This document shows, one piece after another, positions 3,886 through 34,849 of a stretch of DNA of 64,000 nt. The stretch spans positions 1,334,501 through 1,398,500 of the forward strand of contig NC_021184.1 of NCBI RefSeq assembly GCF_000233715.2, read 5' to 3'. The notes under the pieces were generated by a model. That model was not told where the DNA came from and ran no database searches. It saw only the letters and a program-made list of their open reading frames with translations. A program made the position numbers and the translations under genes. Each line of letters begins with the position of its first letter. Within the stretch, counting starts at the first letter, position 1. The stretch is from Desulfoscipio gibsoniae DSM 7213 (GTDB lineage Bacteria > Bacillota > Desulfotomaculia > Desulfotomaculales > Desulfallaceae).

Positions 3886-4866
3886 ATGCAGGATAGATTC
3901 CAGCGGCAGATCAATTACTTGCGCATTTCGGTGACCGACCGGTGCAACCTGCGCTGCGTTTACTGTATGCCTGCTGAGGGGGTTCAATGCTTACCGCACA
4001 GTGAAATATTAACTTTGGAAGAAATCGTCGACGTTGTTAAGGCGGGAGTGAGGGTTGGTATTAGAAAAGTGCGCCTTACCGGAGGGGAGCCGCTGTTGCG
4101 CCGCGGTATTTTGGAACTAATAAAAAAGCTGAGTGATATCCCTGAAATAGACGATATTGCATTAACGACCAATGGAATTTTGCTGGGGGATATGGCGAAG
4201 GATTTAAAGGTGGCCGGGTTGAAACGGGTCAATATAAGCCTGGATACTTTACAACCTGCACGTTTTCACCGTATCACCCGGGGCGGGAACCTGAATTTGG
4301 TGCGCCGTGGTATTGATGCTGCTCTGGAAAACGGACTTGAGCCGGTTAAAATAAACACGGTAGCCATCCGGGGTTTTAATGATGATGAGCTGCTGGAACT
4401 GGCCAGGCTTAGCATGGAATTGCCGCTGCACGTCCGGTTTATTGAATTAATGCCCATTGGAACCTCGGATGACTGGTCCCGGGAAAGATTTATTTCCACC
4501 CAGGAAGTCAAGGAATTAATCGGTGGGGCGTTGGGCAATCTGGAAGACGAGAAGGTGATTGCCGGTAGCGGACCGGCCCGTTACAGTCGTTTGCCCGGCG
4601 CCCCGGGTACCATTGGCTTTATTTCGGCGGTGAGCAATCATTTTTGTGCCACTTGCAACCGGCTGCGCCTGACGGCCACCGGTCAGCTGCGGCCCTGTTT
4701 GTTCAGCGGCCGGGAAACCGACCTTAAGCAGGCACTGCGGGCCGATGCCGGGCCCGATGAACTGGCCCGCATTTTCCAAAAGGCTATTTTGGCCAAGCCC
4801 GACGGCCATAACATGGCGGTAGGCTGGCAGAAGGACGATCGCATCATGTCCCAAATCGGAGGTTGA
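3886..4866 (+). CDS. moaA: GTP 3',8-cyclase MoaA
   Basis: Radical SAM enzyme for the first step of molybdopterin synthesis (GTP to 3',8-cyclo-7,8-dihydro-GTP). The N-terminal cluster motif is CNLRCVYC (residues about 24-31), the SAM-binding GGEP lies near residue 66, and the second 4Fe-4S cluster ligands are in the C-terminal segment CATCNRLRL...RPCLF. 326 residues is the normal length. GAAAGAAGG precedes the ATG. The stop overlaps the ribosome site region of moaC, indicating one transcript. Confidence 0.97.
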
Positions 4867-4874
4867 TTGTATTA

Positions 4875-5384
4875 ATGAGTGATCATGGATATCAGGGTTT
4901 GAATCATTTCGATGCCGGCGGCGCGGCCCGGATGGTAGATATCAGCGGCAAGGATGATACCGTGCGGGTGGCGGTGGCCCGGGGCGAGGTACTTATGCAG
5001 CCCGGTACGCTGGAACTGATTGACCGGGGCGGAGTAGCCAAGGGTGATGTGCTGGGCGTGGCCAGGGTGGCCGGCATTATGGCGGCCAAAGAAACCGGAC
5101 GGCTTATTCCTATGGCCCATCCCATTACCTTGACCGGAGTTAATGTGGATTTTCGCCTGCAGCGGCCCGGCCGGGTGCAGATCCAGGCACGGGTTCGTAC
5201 AACAGGCAAAACCGGAGTGGAGATGGAGGCGCTTACGGCGGTTACCGTGGCCGGATTGACCATTTATGATATGTGCAAAGCCGTGGACCGGGAAATGGTG
5301 CTGGGGCAAGTCAGACTGGTACATAAAACCGGTGGTAAAAGCGGCACATTTGAGAGGGAAGGTGAACAGATATGGGATACGTAG
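4875..5384 (+). CDS. moaC: Cyclic pyranopterin monophosphate synthase MoaC
   Basis: 169 residues. MoaC converts the MoaA product to cyclic pyranopterin monophosphate. Family hallmarks are visible: [10 protein letters not shown] near the start, the [15 protein letters not shown] active-site stretch, [12 protein letters not shown] and YDMCKAVD. The ATG at 4875 is used: GGAGG at 4859-4863 lies about 12 bases upstream, while a TTG at 4863 would overlap the ribosome site. The 3' end overlaps the MOSC gene by 13 bases, suggesting translational coupling. Confidence 0.96.
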
Positions 5385-28460: not shown

Positions 28461-29837
28461 TTATTTGCTATCCTTATTCAGGCGCTTGTTTAACTGTCCC
28501 AGGACCAACGATAAAAGTAACCCCGGCGCTAGTGTAGCCAGTATAACCATAATGGTGTTATACGTATACCAGGCTATCAAGTAAACCATGGCGATTAAAA
28601 TAGACATAAGCATTAAGGGAAAGCTTATCTTGAAAAACTGAAAGAAACCCACCAGAACATTGTTTCTTTCAGCCATGCCTACTGCTACCAGGTTGGCTGA
28701 GGCACCAACAATGGTGCCGTTGCCGCCCAGACAGGCCCCCAGAGAAAGGGACCACCATAAGAAATCGATGTTTTCTAAAGCACCCAGTCGCCCCATCTCT
28801 TTAATCAAAGGTATCATGGTAGCTACGAAAGGGATGTTGTCCACAAAGGAAGAAGCTACGGCCGACAGCCATAAAATGAACAGCCCTGCGGGGAGTATAG
28901 AACCTCGAGTGGTATCCAGGGCGAACATGGCGATAGATTCAATAACTCCGGTGGCTTCCAACGCGCCCACTACTACAAACAATCCGATAAAAAAGAATAT
29001 TACTGGCCATTCCACGCTATGTAAGGCACGTTCTGGATCGAACCGGGTAATTACCAGCAAAATTGAGGCCCCGGCTAATGCTATAACGGAACTTTCCAAA
29101 TGCACCAGTTGATGTAGAGTAAAGCCAACAATAGTCAGGGATAAAACAAATATACATTTTTTAAGTAAAACAACATCTTTAATCTCATTATTTTCGTTTA
29201 TTTCCATAATGGCCTGCTGCAGCTGTGTAGTTGTTTGCAGGCTGTTTTTATAAATGCGCAGCAGTATGTATAATGTCAGTGCATAAATAACTACCACCAC
29301 AGGGGCCAGGTTGATTAAAAAATCCATAAAGCCCAGGTGCGTAGCGCTGCCAATCATAATATTGGGGGGATCGCCGATAAGGGTAGCTGTCCCGCCGATA
29401 TTGGAAGCAAGTATTTCGGTTATTATGAATGGCAGAGGATTTACCTTAAGCTTGGTGGTAATTGCTAAAGTTACGGGCACAATAAGCAGCACAGTGGTTA
29501 CATTATCCAGCAGGGCTGAAAAAACTGCCGTCAACAATGCCAGCGATGCCAGTACCCTTAGCGGCTCACCCCGGGCCATTTTGCTGGTGCGAATGGCTAC
29601 ATATTCAAATAACCCGGTTTGCCGGGTAATACCCACGATGATCATCATGCCCACCAGTAGCCCGATGGTATTAAAATCTATATAATGAACGGCTTCATCC
29701 GGGGTTAATATCTTGGCCAGCATAATAATTGAAGCTCCTGCGAATGCAGCCACGGCACGGTGTATTTTCTCTGAAACGACCACGGCGTAGGTGATTAAAA
29801 AAATAACAATGGCCCAAAATGATGTGTTTTCTAACAT
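28461..29837 (-). CDS. ArsB/NhaD-family ion transporter
   Basis: 458 residues, about 11-12 membrane helices. Both halves carry the re-entrant motifs of the ion transporter superfamily: ALLDNVTTVLLIVPVTLAI with GGTATLIGDPPNIMIG in the first, SSFVDNIPFVATMIPL with LGGNGTIVGASANLVAVG in the second. Substrate may be Na+/H+, arsenite or a carboxylate; no arsenic or other diagnostic genes are adjacent. The truncated gene at 1-486 is a close paralog. Monocistronic; GGGGGGACC precedes the ATG. Confidence 0.9.
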   Translation of the reverse strand: MLENTSFWAIVIFLITYAVVVSEKIHRAVAAFAGASIIMLAKILTPDEAVHYIDFNTIGLLVGMMIIVGITRQTGLFEYVAIRTSKMARGEPLRVLASLALLTAVFSALLDNVTTVLLIVPVTLAITTKLKVNPLPFIITEILASNIGGTATLIGDPPNIMIGSATHLGFMDFLINLAPVVVVIYALTLYILLRIYKNSLQTTTQLQQAIMEINENNEIKDVVLLKKCIFVLSLTIVGFTLHQLVHLESSVIALAGASILLVITRFDPERALHSVEWPVIFFFIGLFVVVGALEATGVIESIAMFALDTTRGSILPAGLFILWLSAVASSFVDNIPFVATMIPLIKEMGRLGALENIDFLWWSLSLGACLGGNGTIVGASANLVAVGMAERNNVLVGFFQFFKISFPLMLMSILIAMVYLIAWYTYNTIMVILATLAPGLLLSLVLGQLNKRLNKDSK

Positions 29838-30035: not shown

Positions 30036-30848
30036 TTACTTTATTTTCTTCTTAATAAAATAACCCTCCGGGTCTATTTCTTCCCGCACCAGTCTAATTT
30101 CTTCCAGAGTCGGCGGCTCAAACTGGTATACATTATCATCCACCAGTAGCTCGAAGCCGGTGTTTTCCTGTACGCTTTGTACCGTCTCCCCGGGCATGGT
30201 GGCTAAAAGTTTCATGCGCCGTGTATTTTCATCAAACCCCAGCAGTGCACGGGTGGTAATGACCCGGTATGGTCCCTTGCCTACCAGTCCCGCTTTTTTA
30301 CGGGCACCGGGGCTGCCGTCTAAAAAACCCGGGCTGGTTAAATAGCTTAACTTTTCTTTAAAACGTCTCTTTTCATGGACCATGATAATGATGATACGTT
30401 CGCAGGATGCAGCCATATCACTGGCACCGCCGCTGCCAGGCAAGCGTACTTTCGGGCTTTGGTAGTCCCCAGGAAATTCACCGATCATAGTTGAGTTTAA
30501 ATTACCATAGATGTCTATTTCGGCACCACCGATAAAACCGTAGTCGCAAAAACCCCGCTGGGCCAGTTCAAAAGCGGAATTAAGCCCCTGTAGGTACATG
30601 GCTTTGCTGGTGGTGCGTGAATCACCCACAGAAAGCGGCAGCCCCCTGGTTAAGCGTGGCCCTACTGCCCCTGCTTCAAACACCGGTATAATTCCTGCGG
30701 CATGGGTTAGTTGGGCAAGAGTTATGGCGACCATAGGCAGTCCGGTACCTGCAAATACTACTTTGTTGTTTTCGAGTATTCGGGCCCCGGCTACCACGAT
30801 CATTTCCTGGGGGGAAAAATCATCGGCATAGTAGTCAAGGATTTCCAT
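30036..30848 (-). CDS. CoA-transferase, subunit B (GctB-like)
   Basis: 270 residues of the family I CoA-transferase beta subunit, glutaconate CoA-transferase-like branch. The segment PVFEAGAVGP holds the Glu expected to form the CoA thioester intermediate; LPGSGGASDMAASCERIIIIM and the FLDGSPGARKKAGL region fit the family. It transfers CoA between acyl-CoA and a free acid; substrate unknown. Starts one base after subunit A, with GGGGAGG before ATG. Confidence 0.88.
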   Translation of the reverse strand: MEILDYYADDFSPQEMIVVAGARILENNKVVFAGTGLPMVAITLAQLTHAAGIIPVFEAGAVGPRLTRGLPLSVGDSRTTSKAMYLQGLNSAFELAQRGFCDYGFIGGAEIDIYGNLNSTMIGEFPGDYQSPKVRLPGSGGASDMAASCERIIIIMVHEKRRFKEKLSYLTSPGFLDGSPGARKKAGLVGKGPYRVITTRALLGFDENTRRMKLLATMPGETVQSVQENTGFELLVDDNVYQFEPPTLEEIRLVREEIDPEGYFIKKKIK

Positions 30849-30849
30849 A

Positions 30850-31926
30850 TTATATGCCTCCCCGGGTGCCCAGTTTTTTCACTGACCTGGCTGACGTTTT
30901 ATAACTGTCACCGGTGTCCTGCCTTGATACACCGCGAATGAGACGAAAGTCCCTAATTTCAATTTGTTGAATATGCTGCAACTGGTTATACGGTATTTGG
31001 CTTAAAAACTCCGCTGTATTTTGGACGCCGTAAATATAATGATCGTAGTACATTTCCAGTGGTGCGCGGTCGCCTTTCCTAAAAGCCTCTCCGGCAGTCT
31101 GAAGCTCCTTGATGTGCTTATCATCAAAATAATAATGACTGTGGCAATTGCCGGGGTAGGCACCAAAGGGCACTTCCACCACCGCGTCCACAGAAAAGAA
31201 GGGTATATTTACCCGATTGGGGTCACTTACAATACTTTCATGCTCCACTATCCGCTCGCAAGTTAATATGGTATATCCCGCTGCCATAGCTATTTCCGGA
31301 CAAGTGAACAATGGCCCCTGGATTTTACAGTTACCGTAAATATCGGCTTCCTGTACGTGAACCAGTGCCACATGGGGGTGCGCGGCGGGCAGTAAAGCCA
31401 CCGGGTCGTCAGTAAAAGGACAATCCATTATTTGAGAACGATTTGCTTGCATAACATCGCTGCCCAGCGGACTGCGGCAGGGGATGAATGGAATACCCAT
31501 GGCGCCGGCCTTAAACCTGGCCGACATATTAAAATTGCTCCAATCTTCCAATTCAACTTTACCGCTTTCGGCTAAATAACGAAATAGGGGTGATATACCG
31601 AACGATTCATGTGCCCAATAAGCAAATTCCATTCGCTTGATTGAACACAGGGCTGGGTTCAGTGCCATAGCGCCGGCCAGGTATTCTAAAGCCAGTCCGG
31701 CGGATTGAAAAGAGAGGGTTAAATCCTTTTTTTTCTGTCTGATAATCTCATGAATTGCTGCCACAGGCTGGCGGCTGTTAACAAAACCGGCAATACCAAT
31801 GTTATAGCCGTCTTTAACAAAAGTGTTGATAGCCTCGGCCAGCCCCATACGCTTGTCCTTTTTGGACTTATCCTTATTGACAAGGATTTCCCTGGCTTCA
31901 TCCGGCGTAAATCCAGTCCAGTACAT
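30850..31926 (-). CDS. CoA-transferase, subunit A (GctA-like)
   Basis: 358 residues, alpha subunit of the same heteromeric CoA-transferase, with GYNIGIAGFVNSRQPVAAIHEIIRQ near the start, CRSPLGSDVM, HVQEADIYGNCKIQGP and the closing FAYPGN-like FGAYPGNCHSHYYFDD. The start at 31926 (MYWTGFTPDEA) is chosen because GGAGGAATTT sits directly before it; that same GGAGG is inside the reading frame from the ATG at 31938. No other acid-degradation genes are nearby to indicate the substrate. Confidence 0.87.
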   Translation of the reverse strand: MYWTGFTPDEAREILVNKDKSKKDKRMGLAEAINTFVKDGYNIGIAGFVNSRQPVAAIHEIIRQKKKDLTLSFQSAGLALEYLAGAMALNPALCSIKRMEFAYWAHESFGISPLFRYLAESGKVELEDWSNFNMSARFKAGAMGIPFIPCRSPLGSDVMQANRSQIMDCPFTDDPVALLPAAHPHVALVHVQEADIYGNCKIQGPLFTCPEIAMAAGYTILTCERIVEHESIVSDPNRVNIPFFSVDAVVEVPFGAYPGNCHSHYYFDDKHIKELQTAGEAFRKGDRAPLEMYYDHYIYGVQNTAEFLSQIPYNQLQHIQQIEIRDFRLIRGVSRQDTGDSYKTSARSVKKLGTRGGI

Positions 31927-32134
31927 AAATTCCTCCATTTTGTGTGTAATTTAATAGTTAGCAAAATAATTATAGCATATATTGTTTGATTAATTAGTCA
32001 GAAAATAATAAATAATACAAAATACATGACAAAATACATGACAATGTTTAGTATGAAAAAAAACCGGGCCAGGTAATAATCAACGGTTGGCAAGGACTAC
32101 ATAGCTAACCCATATATATAAAACGTTAAAATTA

Positions 32135-32758
32135 TTAAGCAATAGTAATAGCTTTATGCGGCTTGTTAAGCCAGTTATTGATTTCGAACATATTGGAGAT
32201 ATCCCCTAATAGCAGTTTTTCTTTAATACCGTAATACTCAAGGCAGGTGCCACAGGAAAGTACGGCGGTGCCATGTGTGTGTAATTTTTCCAGCTGTTCC
32301 TGCACTGGAGTACCTGCACAGGTTAAAAATACACCGGTATTCAAAAACAATAGCGCCGCAGGCGGGGGATCCATGGCCACCAGGGTGGTGAACAGGCTTT
32401 TCATCAGTACCTGTCCCAGATCCGGCGAACCTTGGCCCAGTGCATTGGTTGTAATGAAATAAACCGGCCCGACGGTGGGCGTAACGGCAGCAGGGGTGGG
32501 GGCTGCGCTTTCGTTAGTTTGATTTGCTGTAGCCTGGGCGCCAATGCGGGTTATAGTCAAATGATAAAAGCCCTCTTTGGGCTGTTCGTTTACCTGGTAG
32601 CCCGCATTTTTGGCGAACAACACTACGTTTTGACGGGCAACATCGTTATCCACAATGGTGGTAACGGTGTCGACACCTGCTTCTTCAAGAGCTTTTTTGG
32701 TGTTGATTACCGGGTGTGGGCAGGCCAATCCCCGGCAGTCCACTAATTTATGATTCAT
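32135..32758 (-). CDS. yedF: Selenium metabolism sulfurtransferase-like protein YedF
   Basis: 207 residues in two parts: an N-terminal TusA-like domain with DCRGLACPHPV (Cys-Pro motif, residues about 8-18) and a C-terminal DsrE-like domain with LNTGVFLTCAGTPVQEQL and LSCGTCLEYYG. This combination marks YedF of selenium-using organisms, encoded next to selD as here. It is thought to handle selenium or sulfur before selenophosphate synthesis; the exact step is not established. GAGGATTAATAA precedes the ATG. Confidence 0.93.
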   Translation of the reverse strand: MNHKLVDCRGLACPHPVINTKKALEEAGVDTVTTIVDNDVARQNVVLFAKNAGYQVNEQPKEGFYHLTITRIGAQATANQTNESAAPTPAAVTPTVGPVYFITTNALGQGSPDLGQVLMKSLFTTLVAMDPPPAALLFLNTGVFLTCAGTPVQEQLEKLHTHGTAVLSCGTCLEYYGIKEKLLLGDISNMFEINNWLNKPHKAITIA

Positions 32759-32809: not shown

Positions 32810-33850
32810 CTAAATAACACTGATCAGCTTATCTTGAATCGGCAGCACCTGGCCTATTACTGCCGATGGTGTGCCTTGGCCCGCCAGTTCCGCCACCAAC
32901 CGGTCTGCCAGGGACCCTGGCACCGCTATAAGCAGTCCACCTGAAGTCTGTGGGTCGAACAGTATCATTTGTTCTTCAGGTCTAAGGGAATTGTCCAGGG
33001 TTACCTTGCCAATTAGGTATTCTTTATTATCATAAGCGCCCCCCGGTATAATACCCATGCGGGCCATCTCTATTGTTTCGGGCAGCAATGGTACCGCAGA
33101 AAAACAAATCTCCAGGCTGACTTGACTGGCCGCAGCCATTTCGGCGGCATGACCAAGCAGGCCAAAACCGGTGATATCGGTACATGCGCTGGCATTGTAC
33201 CGTTGCATGCTTGCAGATGCTTCTTTATTTAGCGCGGACATGCACTGCGCTGCTTGTTTGGCGGCTTCAGGAGACAGCAAGTCAGCCTTGATGGCAGTAT
33301 TAATAATACCGGTGCCCAGTGGTTTGGTTAATACCAACCGGTCGCCGGGCCGGGCGGTGGCGTTGGAGATAATACCCCCGGGTGGTGCCAGGCCGGCAAC
33401 TGCCAGCCCATATTTAGGCTCATCATCTCGTACCGTGTGACCCCCGGCAATAATACCGCCTGCTTCCACCACTTTATCAGCCCCACCCTTTAGAATATCC
33501 TCCAGGACGGCAATAGGCAGGCAATCGGGAAAACAGACTATATTCAGGGCCAAAAGCGGTTGGCCACCCATGGCATAAATATCGCTTAAAGCGTTGGCCG
33601 CGGCAATTTGCCCGAATAAATATGGATCATCTACCATGGGAGTGAAAAAATCAACAGTTTGTATTAACGCCTGATGTTCATTCAGTCGGTATACGGCGGC
33701 ATCATCCGAGGTATTCAGCCCCACCAGAAGGTTCGGGTCTTGGGATACGGGTAATTGTCGCAGAACCTGCGACAGGGTATGCGGCCCTATCTTGGCTGCT
33801 CACCCGGGTGTTTTGGCCAGGCTGGTTAGCCTTACTGTTTTATTAGTCAT
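32810..33850 (-). CDS. selD: Selenophosphate synthetase SelD, selenocysteine-containing
   Basis: 346 residues with UGA at codon 17 (33802-33800) read as selenocysteine. From ATG 33850 the frame gives MTNKTVRLTSLAKTPG-U-AAKIGP, matching the catalytic G(C/U)xxK site of SelD; a stop-limited reading would lose this and begin only at 33724. Downstream, TVDFFTPMVDDPYLFGQIAAANALSDIYAMGG, AGGHTVRDDEPKYGLAV and FDPQTSGGLLIAV are typical. SelD makes selenophosphate from selenide and ATP for Sec-tRNA. GGAGGCCGACCTAATA lies before ATG. yedF follows 51 bases downstream. Confidence 0.95.
33756..33774 (-). promoter_or_regulatory. Candidate bacterial SECIS hairpin in selD
   Basis: In the selD mRNA, TGTCGCAG and CTGCGACA form a perfect 8-bp stem around GTT; the stem begins 25 nt and the loop 33 nt after the UGA. 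G and U in the apical loop and this distance fit bacterial SECIS elements, which bind SelB. Confidence 0.8.
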
Positions 33851-34029: not shown

Positions 34030-34126
34030 CAGCTATAAAAAGACCGGCAAAGGTATACATTAAAGGTATGGTTATGATAAAATTTGTGGGTAAATTAGTT
34101 TAACCATATATAAGGAGGAAATAACA

Positions 34127-34468
34127 TTGCAGCCATTTGAAGTAATCATTTTTGGCCTTAATGCCCCGGTACCCCATGTAGGCTGAGGCCCCAGTCCCTC
34201 CGCAGGTTGCGGATCAGAAAAAACCATGAAACAAGATGCCGAGGAATTGGGTGCTACCTTGAAAGGAAGCTTTGGTGATGAGGTTGATGTAAAGTTTGTA
34301 GATGTTTCCACCGAGGCACTTAAGGAGTACCCCAACATTGAATCCATTTTGCCCCGGGTTCGGTTACCGCTGACGGTAATCAATGGCGAGCCCCGCTTCC
34401 ACGGTGGCATTTCTGCCGAAGTTATTTCGGATGCCTTGCAGAACATAAAAAAAGAACAAAGCAATTAA
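34127..34468 (+). CDS. Thioredoxin-like selenoprotein with in-frame UGA
   Basis: 113 residues if UGA at codon 20 (34184-34186) is read as selenocysteine. TTG at 34127 has AAGGAGGAA six bases upstream. The start reads MQPFEVIIFGLNAPVPHVG-U-GPSPSAGCGS; after the UGA the frame continues to 34468 with a beta-alpha pattern and LPLTVINGEPRFHGGIS, which looks like the cis-Pro region of a thioredoxin fold. Layout recalls YuzD/DUF1462-like proteins and may belong to the SaoT-type (seleno)proteins, both unverified. Sec20 and Cys28 form a likely redox pair. Divergent from selD. A stop-based reading would wrongly begin at ATG 34226. Confidence 0.85.
34199..34213 (+). promoter_or_regulatory. Candidate SECIS hairpin of the thioredoxin-like selenoprotein gene
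   Basis: TCCGCA (34199-34204) and TGCGGA (34208-34213) form a perfect stem around GGT; the loop starts 18 nt after the UGA. The GC-AGGT-TGC apex resembles the selD hairpin and known SelB sites. Confidence 0.75.
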
Positions 34469-34564: not shown

Positions 34565-34849
34565 ATGGCCTGGAGAGATCTAAAAAATAAGGTTAAACGT
34601 CAATTTTCAGATGTCCTGGATTTACCAGGGGATATTATGCTGGATTTGCCCAAAATAGTGCTGGTCGGCAACCTGCAGGTGTTTATTGAGAACCATCGCG
34701 GTATTCAAGAATATAACCCCCGTTTGGTGCGGGTGGTAGTAAATGACAAAGTGATTGAAGTAACCGGTGAAAATTTGACACTGCGTAATATTATGCCTGA
34801 TGAAATCTGCGTGGAAGGACAAATAACCGGTCTTATTTTTCTAAGTTAG
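34565..34849 (+). CDS. yqfC: Sporulation protein YqfC
   Basis: 94 residues with LDLPGDIMLDLPKIVLVGNLQVFIENHRGI and YNPRLVRVVV, the YabP/YqfC family pattern. In Bacillus the yqfC-yqfD pair is transcribed in the mother cell under sigma-E and is required for normal spore formation; the biochemical role is unknown. A GGCATATT at 34492-34499 resembles a sigma-E -35 but no matching -10 was found. Confidence 0.93.
   Translation: MAWRDLKNKVKRQFSDVLDLPGDIMLDLPKIVLVGNLQVFIENHRGIQEYNPRLVRVVVNDKVIEVTGENLTLRNIMPDEICVEGQITGLIFLS

Follow-up and report, generated by a model that had tools for sequence, protein, structure and literature searches.

A predicted thioredoxin-like selenoprotein divergent from selD, with relatives in arsenic-resistance gene clusters

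The window analyzed here, a 64,000-nucleotide stretch of the Desulfoscipio gibsoniae DSM 7213 genome, carries a reading frame that is interrupted by one UGA and lies divergently from selD. The features of the locus are listed below, where A1 denotes the family profile and A2 and A3 denote family alignments of 24 and 41 rows, respectively.

34127–34468, plus strand: predicted selenoprotein gene, TTG start, UGA read as Sec20, 113 residues plus stop
34112–34120, plus strand: ribosome-binding site AAGGAGGAA, preceding the TTG start
34184–34186, plus strand: in-frame UGA (codon 20), read as Sec20; a U/C alignment column in homologues
34199–34213, plus strand: bSECIS-like hairpin UCCGCA-GGU-UGCGGA, loop 34205–34207; supported at the level of the family but weakly for this sequence by itself
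34208–34210, plus strand: Cys28 codon, likely Sec20 partner, within the hairpin stem; invariant in A2 and at least 90% in A3
34367–34369, plus strand: Pro81 codon, where the thioredoxin fold has its cis-Pro (presumably cis); invariant in A1, A2 and A3
34565–34849, plus strand: yqfC, next gene downstream of the new gene; TIGR02856, 91.9 bits, cut-off 77.8
32810–33850, minus strand: selD, read through its own UGA at 33802–33800 (Sec17); TIGR00476, 401.6 bits
33757–33773, minus strand: SECIS-like hairpin of selD, GUCGCAGGUUCUGCGAC; z −3.13, 0 of 200 shuffles as good
32135–32758, minus strand: yedF, downstream of selD, encoding a selenium metabolism protein; TIGR03527, 189.9 bits, cut-off 110

The frame runs from the TTG at 34127–34129 to the TAA at 34466–34468 and encodes 113 residues, with the UGA as its sole internal stop, exactly at the coordinates given by the initial annotation of this DNA. 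That annotation had also expected conventional gene calling to keep just an 80-residue tail, and the default open reading frame (ORF) list indeed holds only this tail, starting at ATG 34226. An AAGGAGG lies at an equal distance from the start in the close orthologues L002 and L003. Both selD and yedF are on the opposite strand to the new gene, in agreement with the divergent arrangement described at the outset. The default call also starts selD late, at GTG 33724, as readthrough of the UGA at codon 17 is needed to reach its true beginning. The yqfC gene is regarded as a flanking gene and is not thought to be functionally linked to the selenoprotein gene. Promoter-like sites at the locus numbered 2 versus 2.7 in shuffles, and terminator-like sites 2 versus 1.0. 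Rfam gave no match over gathering scores in 12 kb; relaxing the limit to E 5 over the 1.1-kb core produced a single weak microRNA match far under its cut-off. Further along the minus strand, 28461–29837 encodes a membrane transporter that matched the MamN and ArsB models under their cut-offs; by eye, L064 has a similar transporter gene downstream of its yedF, and an arsenite link through this selD-locus transporter is possible but weak. Two adjacent genes occupy 30036–31938 on the same strand; the longer matched a CoA-transferase subunit A model under cut-off, and the shorter matched no NCBIfam model at E 1e-10.

With the readthrough protein as query, 31 of 60 genomes, the organism's own included, gave matches, and the best match held exactly one UGA in 28 of these 31. 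At E 0.001, a profile search matched 41 of the order's 113 genomes and, in a phylum sample of 398 genomes, 72; both counts include the own genome and weak matches, and among the weakest, which are short or partial, there may be other thioredoxin-like proteins. Scanning a named species collection yielded 38 loci, including Desulfoscipio, Desulfallas, Desulfotruncus, Sporotomaculum, Pelotomaculum, Syntrophaceticus and Desulforadius, and one scan of viral contigs gave five pattern stretches and no relative. From 145 profile hits in the collected loci, hits shorter than 95 residues and exact repeats were removed (the dropped partial hits include those of L030, L044 on the plus strand, L084 on the minus strand and L144 on the plus strand), leaving 96 distinct members with the window's own gene among them. 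A UGA was present in 67 of the 96 members, and 29 carried only Cys in the active-site loop. In the column of the window's U, 49 members had U and 47 had C, and 18 of the latter carried a UGA at a nearby loop position instead. Sec and Cys members were mixed on the tree, for example L121 (Sec) with L122 (Cys), or L084 (Sec) with L145 and L085 (Cys); the tree was built from 114 columns, and many of its forks are unresolved. Its family labels and the relatives named above put the window in or close to Desulfallaceae. The sequences compared throughout are related, so the p-values given are optimistic. In L048, two family genes stand in tandem on the minus strand (4142–4492 and 4579–4926), one with UGA and the other with Cys.

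Judged by its conservation, the coding region spans the UGA at 34184, because homologues align across it, Sec and Cys members are mixed, and pN/pS is alike on both sides (0.28 upstream and 0.26 downstream of the UGA for a set of 14 members, namely the 13 selD-linked ones and the L006/L068 member). Residues upstream of the UGA are also retained: F9 is invariant in A1, and F9 and G10 are in A3. An alternative is that the UGA is a true stop and that the gene consists only of the 80-residue ORF from ATG 34226. This ORF is open and is the default call, and the hairpin excess described below is weak in the window's own clade; however, conserved residues preceding the UGA, a pN/pS of 0.28 there, Cys homologues that run straight through the position, and hairpin selection across the family that is confined to UGA members make a true stop extremely improbable. 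Translation through the UGA into a selenoprotein is therefore considered very likely. The hidden thioredoxin-like selenoprotein with U at position 20, which the initial annotation had proposed, thus gained the homologues across the UGA, some with Cys, that it had called for, and Cys28, its suggested resolving residue, proved to be conserved.

The loop of the window hairpin starts 18 nt after the UGA. The bSECIS rules, as given in the available text of PMC13188914, comprise a loop of 3–9, a stem of 4–16, a G in the first two loop positions, a spacing of 16–37 and a minimum free energy of at most −7.5. The window hairpin passed the geometric rules, and its energy straddled the energy rule, at −7.2 when only the bare stem was counted and −8.0 over the scored 27-nt segment. 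On its own, it was no better than shuffles (z −0.33, 61 of 200 as good) and showed no excess over synonymous recoding (p 0.127), in which each gene was recoded with synonymous codons at local usage. Since the window hairpin alone was not above chance, the chance test rests on the family. The mean z against recoding was −1.49 for the UGA members (n=67) versus −0.05 for the Cys members (n=29), a difference with p 2e-7, or p 6e-5 when 70% identity clusters (34 versus 21) were compared. When the bSECIS rule was applied with a bare-stem energy of −7.5 or lower, 24 of 67 UGA members passed, where 3.9 were expected, compared with 1 of 29 Cys members, where 1.4 were expected. The hairpin is under selection in the UGA members of the family and not in the Cys members. 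In the window's group of 14 members, the mean z was only −0.75, with p at or below 0.05 in 2 of them, because the conserved SAGCGS residues already favor the stem; in the 53 UGA members outside this group, the mean z was −1.68, with p at or below 0.05 in 21. Stem sequences vary between subgroups, and the hairpin pair tables, in which the centre was chosen by pairing, are illustrative only. The bSECIS-like element pointed out by the initial annotation thus has the right geometry and family-level support, while being nonsignificant for the window by itself, and it would direct selenocysteine insertion at the UGA.

The selD hairpin and that of the new gene have a GCAGGU apex in common. The UGA of selD was found by pattern in 10 of 13 loci examined, and the apex followed it in each. 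The genome of D. gibsoniae carries selB at 2156121 (390.6 bits) and tRNA-Sec at 2125971 (67.9 bits), two more tRNA hits being barely above the 47-bit cut-off. SelB exceeded its cut-off in 109 of the 113 genomes of the order. Outside the order, where 47 genomes were chosen from 67 with a family match, selB was present in 46, comprising 27 of 27 genomes with a UGA member and 19 of 20 without. SelB co-occurrence does not discriminate UGA from Cys genomes.

Thirteen members are divergent from selD. This group was first labelled by its neighbour, and an independent statement comes from the identity ranking: of the 13 members nearest the window (at least 62% identity, itself included), 12 are divergent from selD, and the contig of the remaining one (L006/L068) is too short to show selD. 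The next nearest, L014/L074 at 61% identity, is not beside selD. One weakly supported group of the tree took in 11 of these 13 together with L068 and the long-branch pair L049/L050, near which no selD was found, and the selD-linked L073 and L018 formed a separate pair. A SelD-query hit in L145 proved to be a thiamine-phosphate kinase (308.3 bits) and was excluded from the 13. In another clade, the Cys member L154 (2836–3970) has yedF 122 bases downstream (211.5 bits, cut-off 110), which is a second hint of a link to selenium metabolism. The adjacency to selD, together with yedF in this second clade, points to a possible role in selenium metabolism. Conceivably, proteins of the selD-linked clade carry selenium in reduced form to SelD, whose in vivo selenium donor is incompletely resolved according to the available text of PMC13188914. 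The 13 divergent members, the 12 among the nearest 13, and the yedF neighbour of L154 would all fit such a carrier; nevertheless, neither L014 nor the majority of the other clades is linked to selD, and divergent neighbours may differ in function, so we consider a carrier role of this kind unlikely.

An AlphaFold model built with 41 sequences (pLDDT 82, pTM 0.72) showed a strand, a long helix, a strand, helices, two strands and a helix, which we read as a thioredoxin fold; residues 18–28, including U20 and C28, had pLDDT under 50. VIA-align placed 1xg8 first (Z 10.8, rmsd 3.1, 99 aligned), followed by thioredoxins, and its Z was within 1 of that of a malarial thioredoxin, so the two are tied. 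The ArsD structures 3mwh and 3kgk followed at Z 8.2. Foldseek listed 1xg8 second and found no match at E 0.001 or better. That the product is a one-domain thioredoxin-like protein with distant ArsD and YuzD resemblance is thus predicted with high confidence.

Within HMMER's filters, the window protein matched no Pfam or NCBIfam model at E up to 10. Scanning 29 members gave sub-threshold matches to VcpD, DUF1462 and general thioredoxin families, and neither these nor ten distant members exceeded a curated cut-off where bits were shown. YuzD/DUF1462 (PF07315; 1xg8, SA0798/SA0789 of S. aureus) has a thioredoxin-like fold in common with the window protein, and the superposition on 1xg8 shows likeness of fold only. 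It matched the family profile A1 by sequence at E 3.2e-4, which weakened to 0.089 with A3; PF07315 matched 6 of the 29 members at E up to 10 and left the window protein unmatched. The divergent UGA members L049 (3735–4070) and L050 (3411–3746), with a shortened loop (WEGUR) and a long branch, reached 24.5 and 24.9 bits versus the DUF1462 cut-off of 25; L050 is one of the two most divergent members in the scanned set, and the pair may be Sec-containing YuzD relatives. PF07315 exceeded its cut-off in 0 of 21 genomes, and the two YuzD/DUF1462 papers that turned up, judged by title, do not concern selenoproteins. Of the two family names floated in the initial annotation, YuzD-like survives as a distant relation, given the score of L050 and the 1xg8 superposition, but does not apply to the window protein itself. 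The other, SaoT-like, was abandoned: SaoT (NF040730) is likewise a small thioredoxin-like (seleno)protein, but its model did not match the window protein and matched 1 of 29 members at E 0.16. VcpD (NF047871), an ArsD-related vicinal cysteine protein, matched 9 of 29 members weakly, at best with E 7.9e-5 and 22.5 bits versus a cut-off of 90, over the N-terminal half; the window protein was unmatched, and NF047871 exceeded its cut-off in 0 of 113 genomes.

The classical thioredoxin/glutaredoxin motif CxxC or UxxC is absent from the window protein, in which U20 and C28 are the only thiol/selenol residues of the loop region, spaced as U-x7-C. Hypothetical protein DG (NF049953), whose motif is given as GUxG in the available text of PMC13188914, was rejected as a candidate; its model has 172 positions, and its two weak hits in the own genome lie elsewhere. 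Among the 119 prokaryotic selenoprotein families tabulated in 2026 in PMC13188914, none has this motif and domain. The family of thioredoxin-like (seleno)proteins is apparently unnamed, which does not prove it new to RefSeq. Because no scanned member reached a curated model cut-off where bits were shown, L050 coming within 0.1 bit of DUF1462, and the family is absent from the 119-family table, its genes are likely cut to their tails by default annotation.

Outside the window's clade, many relatives lie in arsenic-resistance (ars) surroundings. To tally neighbours, 15 query proteins were each run singly in phmmer at E 1e-8. A core ars-type gene was found within 5 kb of 22 of the 96 members, and 16 of the 22 had an ACR3-like gene; without the weakest cases, L137 and L153, 20 of 96 remained. 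Another 13 members were near an ArsR-like regulator or a metal-efflux-type permease, and 47 had no tallied neighbour, with flanks that are uneven and in some cases under 500 bases. ACR3 was over cut-off in 69 of the 113 genomes of the order, so by our estimate chance would place about one member in a hundred within 5 kb of it. The clearest arrangements are those of L097, which reads ArsA, member, ACR3, and of L121 and L122, which both read ArsD, ArsA, ArsA, member, with Sec in L121 and Cys in L122. Curated cut-offs were exceeded by ACR3 in L075, L097, L116, L127 and L129, by ArsA in L097, by ArsD in L121, by arsenite methyltransferase in L083 and L085, and by ArsR/SmtB regulators in L083 and L093. 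Several assignments are weaker or overlap: the L033 and L078 members have one ACR3 gene in common; the ACR3-like gene of L037 was under cut-off (104.9 versus 282.8 bits); that of L137 was not confirmed by the model; the ArsC-like gene of L122 was under cut-offs, and L153 was counted solely through a weak ArsC-like hit. L083, L085 and L141 were counted solely through arsenite methyltransferase, the last from the neighbour search alone. Neighbouring permeases matched the SaoE and SO_0444 models below cut-off. In the own genome, ACR3 lies at 4224332, far from the window gene, which is the sole family match there, and the window's clade is outside ars clusters. Binding of a metalloid by the ars-linked members is a tentative proposal, with slightly less than an even chance in our judgment. 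The Sec and Cys twins at one operon place in L121 and L122 would allow selenium's contribution to metalloid handling to be compared directly.

ArsD (PF06953, NF033727) shares with the family a thioredoxin-like fold and thiol ligands in the loop that precedes helix 1, and with part of it the ars-operon setting, but it has Cys where family members have Sec, and the window member has two ligands only. According to the available text of PMC12607644, Cys12, Cys13 and Cys18 of ArsD participate in As(III) transfer. In profile comparisons, C-x4-U-G-P of subgroup A5 (L134–L138) aligned on C-x4-C-G-P of ArsD with probability 93, and A5 aligned with the main family at 99.7; the main family profile did not align with ArsD at the active site (probability 8). 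The window protein could in principle be a drifted form of the ordinary arsenite chaperone ArsD, as the fold class of 3mwh and 3kgk and the ars setting of its relatives might suggest. However, it has no Pfam or NCBIfam hit, the best of ten distant members reached only 18.1 of 27 bits for PF06953 and 18.4 of 90 for NF033727, the Cys12-Cys13-Cys18 triad is missing from it, and a true ArsD stands alongside the family member in one operon in L121 and L122. A drifted ArsD is thus quite improbable. Beyond the hidden selenoprotein itself, which it recognized, the initial annotation had missed this large family, its ars setting and the ArsD-like motif of the subgroup.

The number of thiol/selenol residues in the loop region averaged 2.08 in selD-linked versus 3.73 in ars-linked members (p 2e-6, for related sequences). 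Exactly two were present in 12 of the 13 selD-linked members, and some ars-linked members have vicinal C-U or U-U, the latter in three collected members from two genomes. What is new here is a selD-divergent clade with two ligands versus ars-linked members with about four, some of them predicted to be vicinal double Sec.

As the best explanation of the whole, and on balance a probable one, we propose a Sec-containing thioredoxin-fold protein that handles a soft electrophile, in which we infer the Sec, the ligand chemistry and the substrate. In the model, Sec20 and Cys28 lie in a mobile loop leading from strand 1 to helix 1, near the cis-Pro81 corner, the position of the active site in thioredoxins and of the arsenite ligands in ArsD. 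The family's selenolates and thiolates would most likely bind and pass on, or reduce, the soft electrophile. For the four-ligand members of ars clusters, the target may be As(III) or a similar metalloid; the two-ligand clade adjoining selD, which includes the window, may serve a step of redox chemistry or chalcogen handling that is linked with selenium metabolism. A purely thiol-disulfide oxidoreductase, in which a Sec20-Cys28 selenenylsulfide passes electrons and the ars setting indicates nothing beyond reducing partners for arsenate reductase or efflux systems, is a serious but less probable contender. The thioredoxin fold with its invariant Pro81, the two ligands in nearly all selD-linked members, and the matches to thioredoxins by both sequence and fold are consistent with it, whereas the U-x7-C spacing differs from CxxC, the ars-linked members have about four ligands, with vicinal CU or UU in some, and subgroup A5 has an ArsD-like motif. 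A bolder version of the soft-electrophile proposal is that of a phylum-wide ArsD-like carrier with selenolate, up to two adjacent Sec, as metalloid ligand, one clade of which was recruited beside selD as a selenium carrier for selenophosphate synthesis by the cell itself; we consider this rather unlikely.

Two adjacent UGA codons (SUUGP) are found in L081 (5399–5740, minus strand; the same gene as that at L141 7409–7750), L142 (3947–4288) and L143 (2564–2905), and these members are predicted to carry a vicinal double selenocysteine. Near them lie genes for PadR-like regulators or efflux-type permeases, or one resembling arsenite methyltransferase, and a fourth two-UGA match occurs outside the collected set, in G098 C120.
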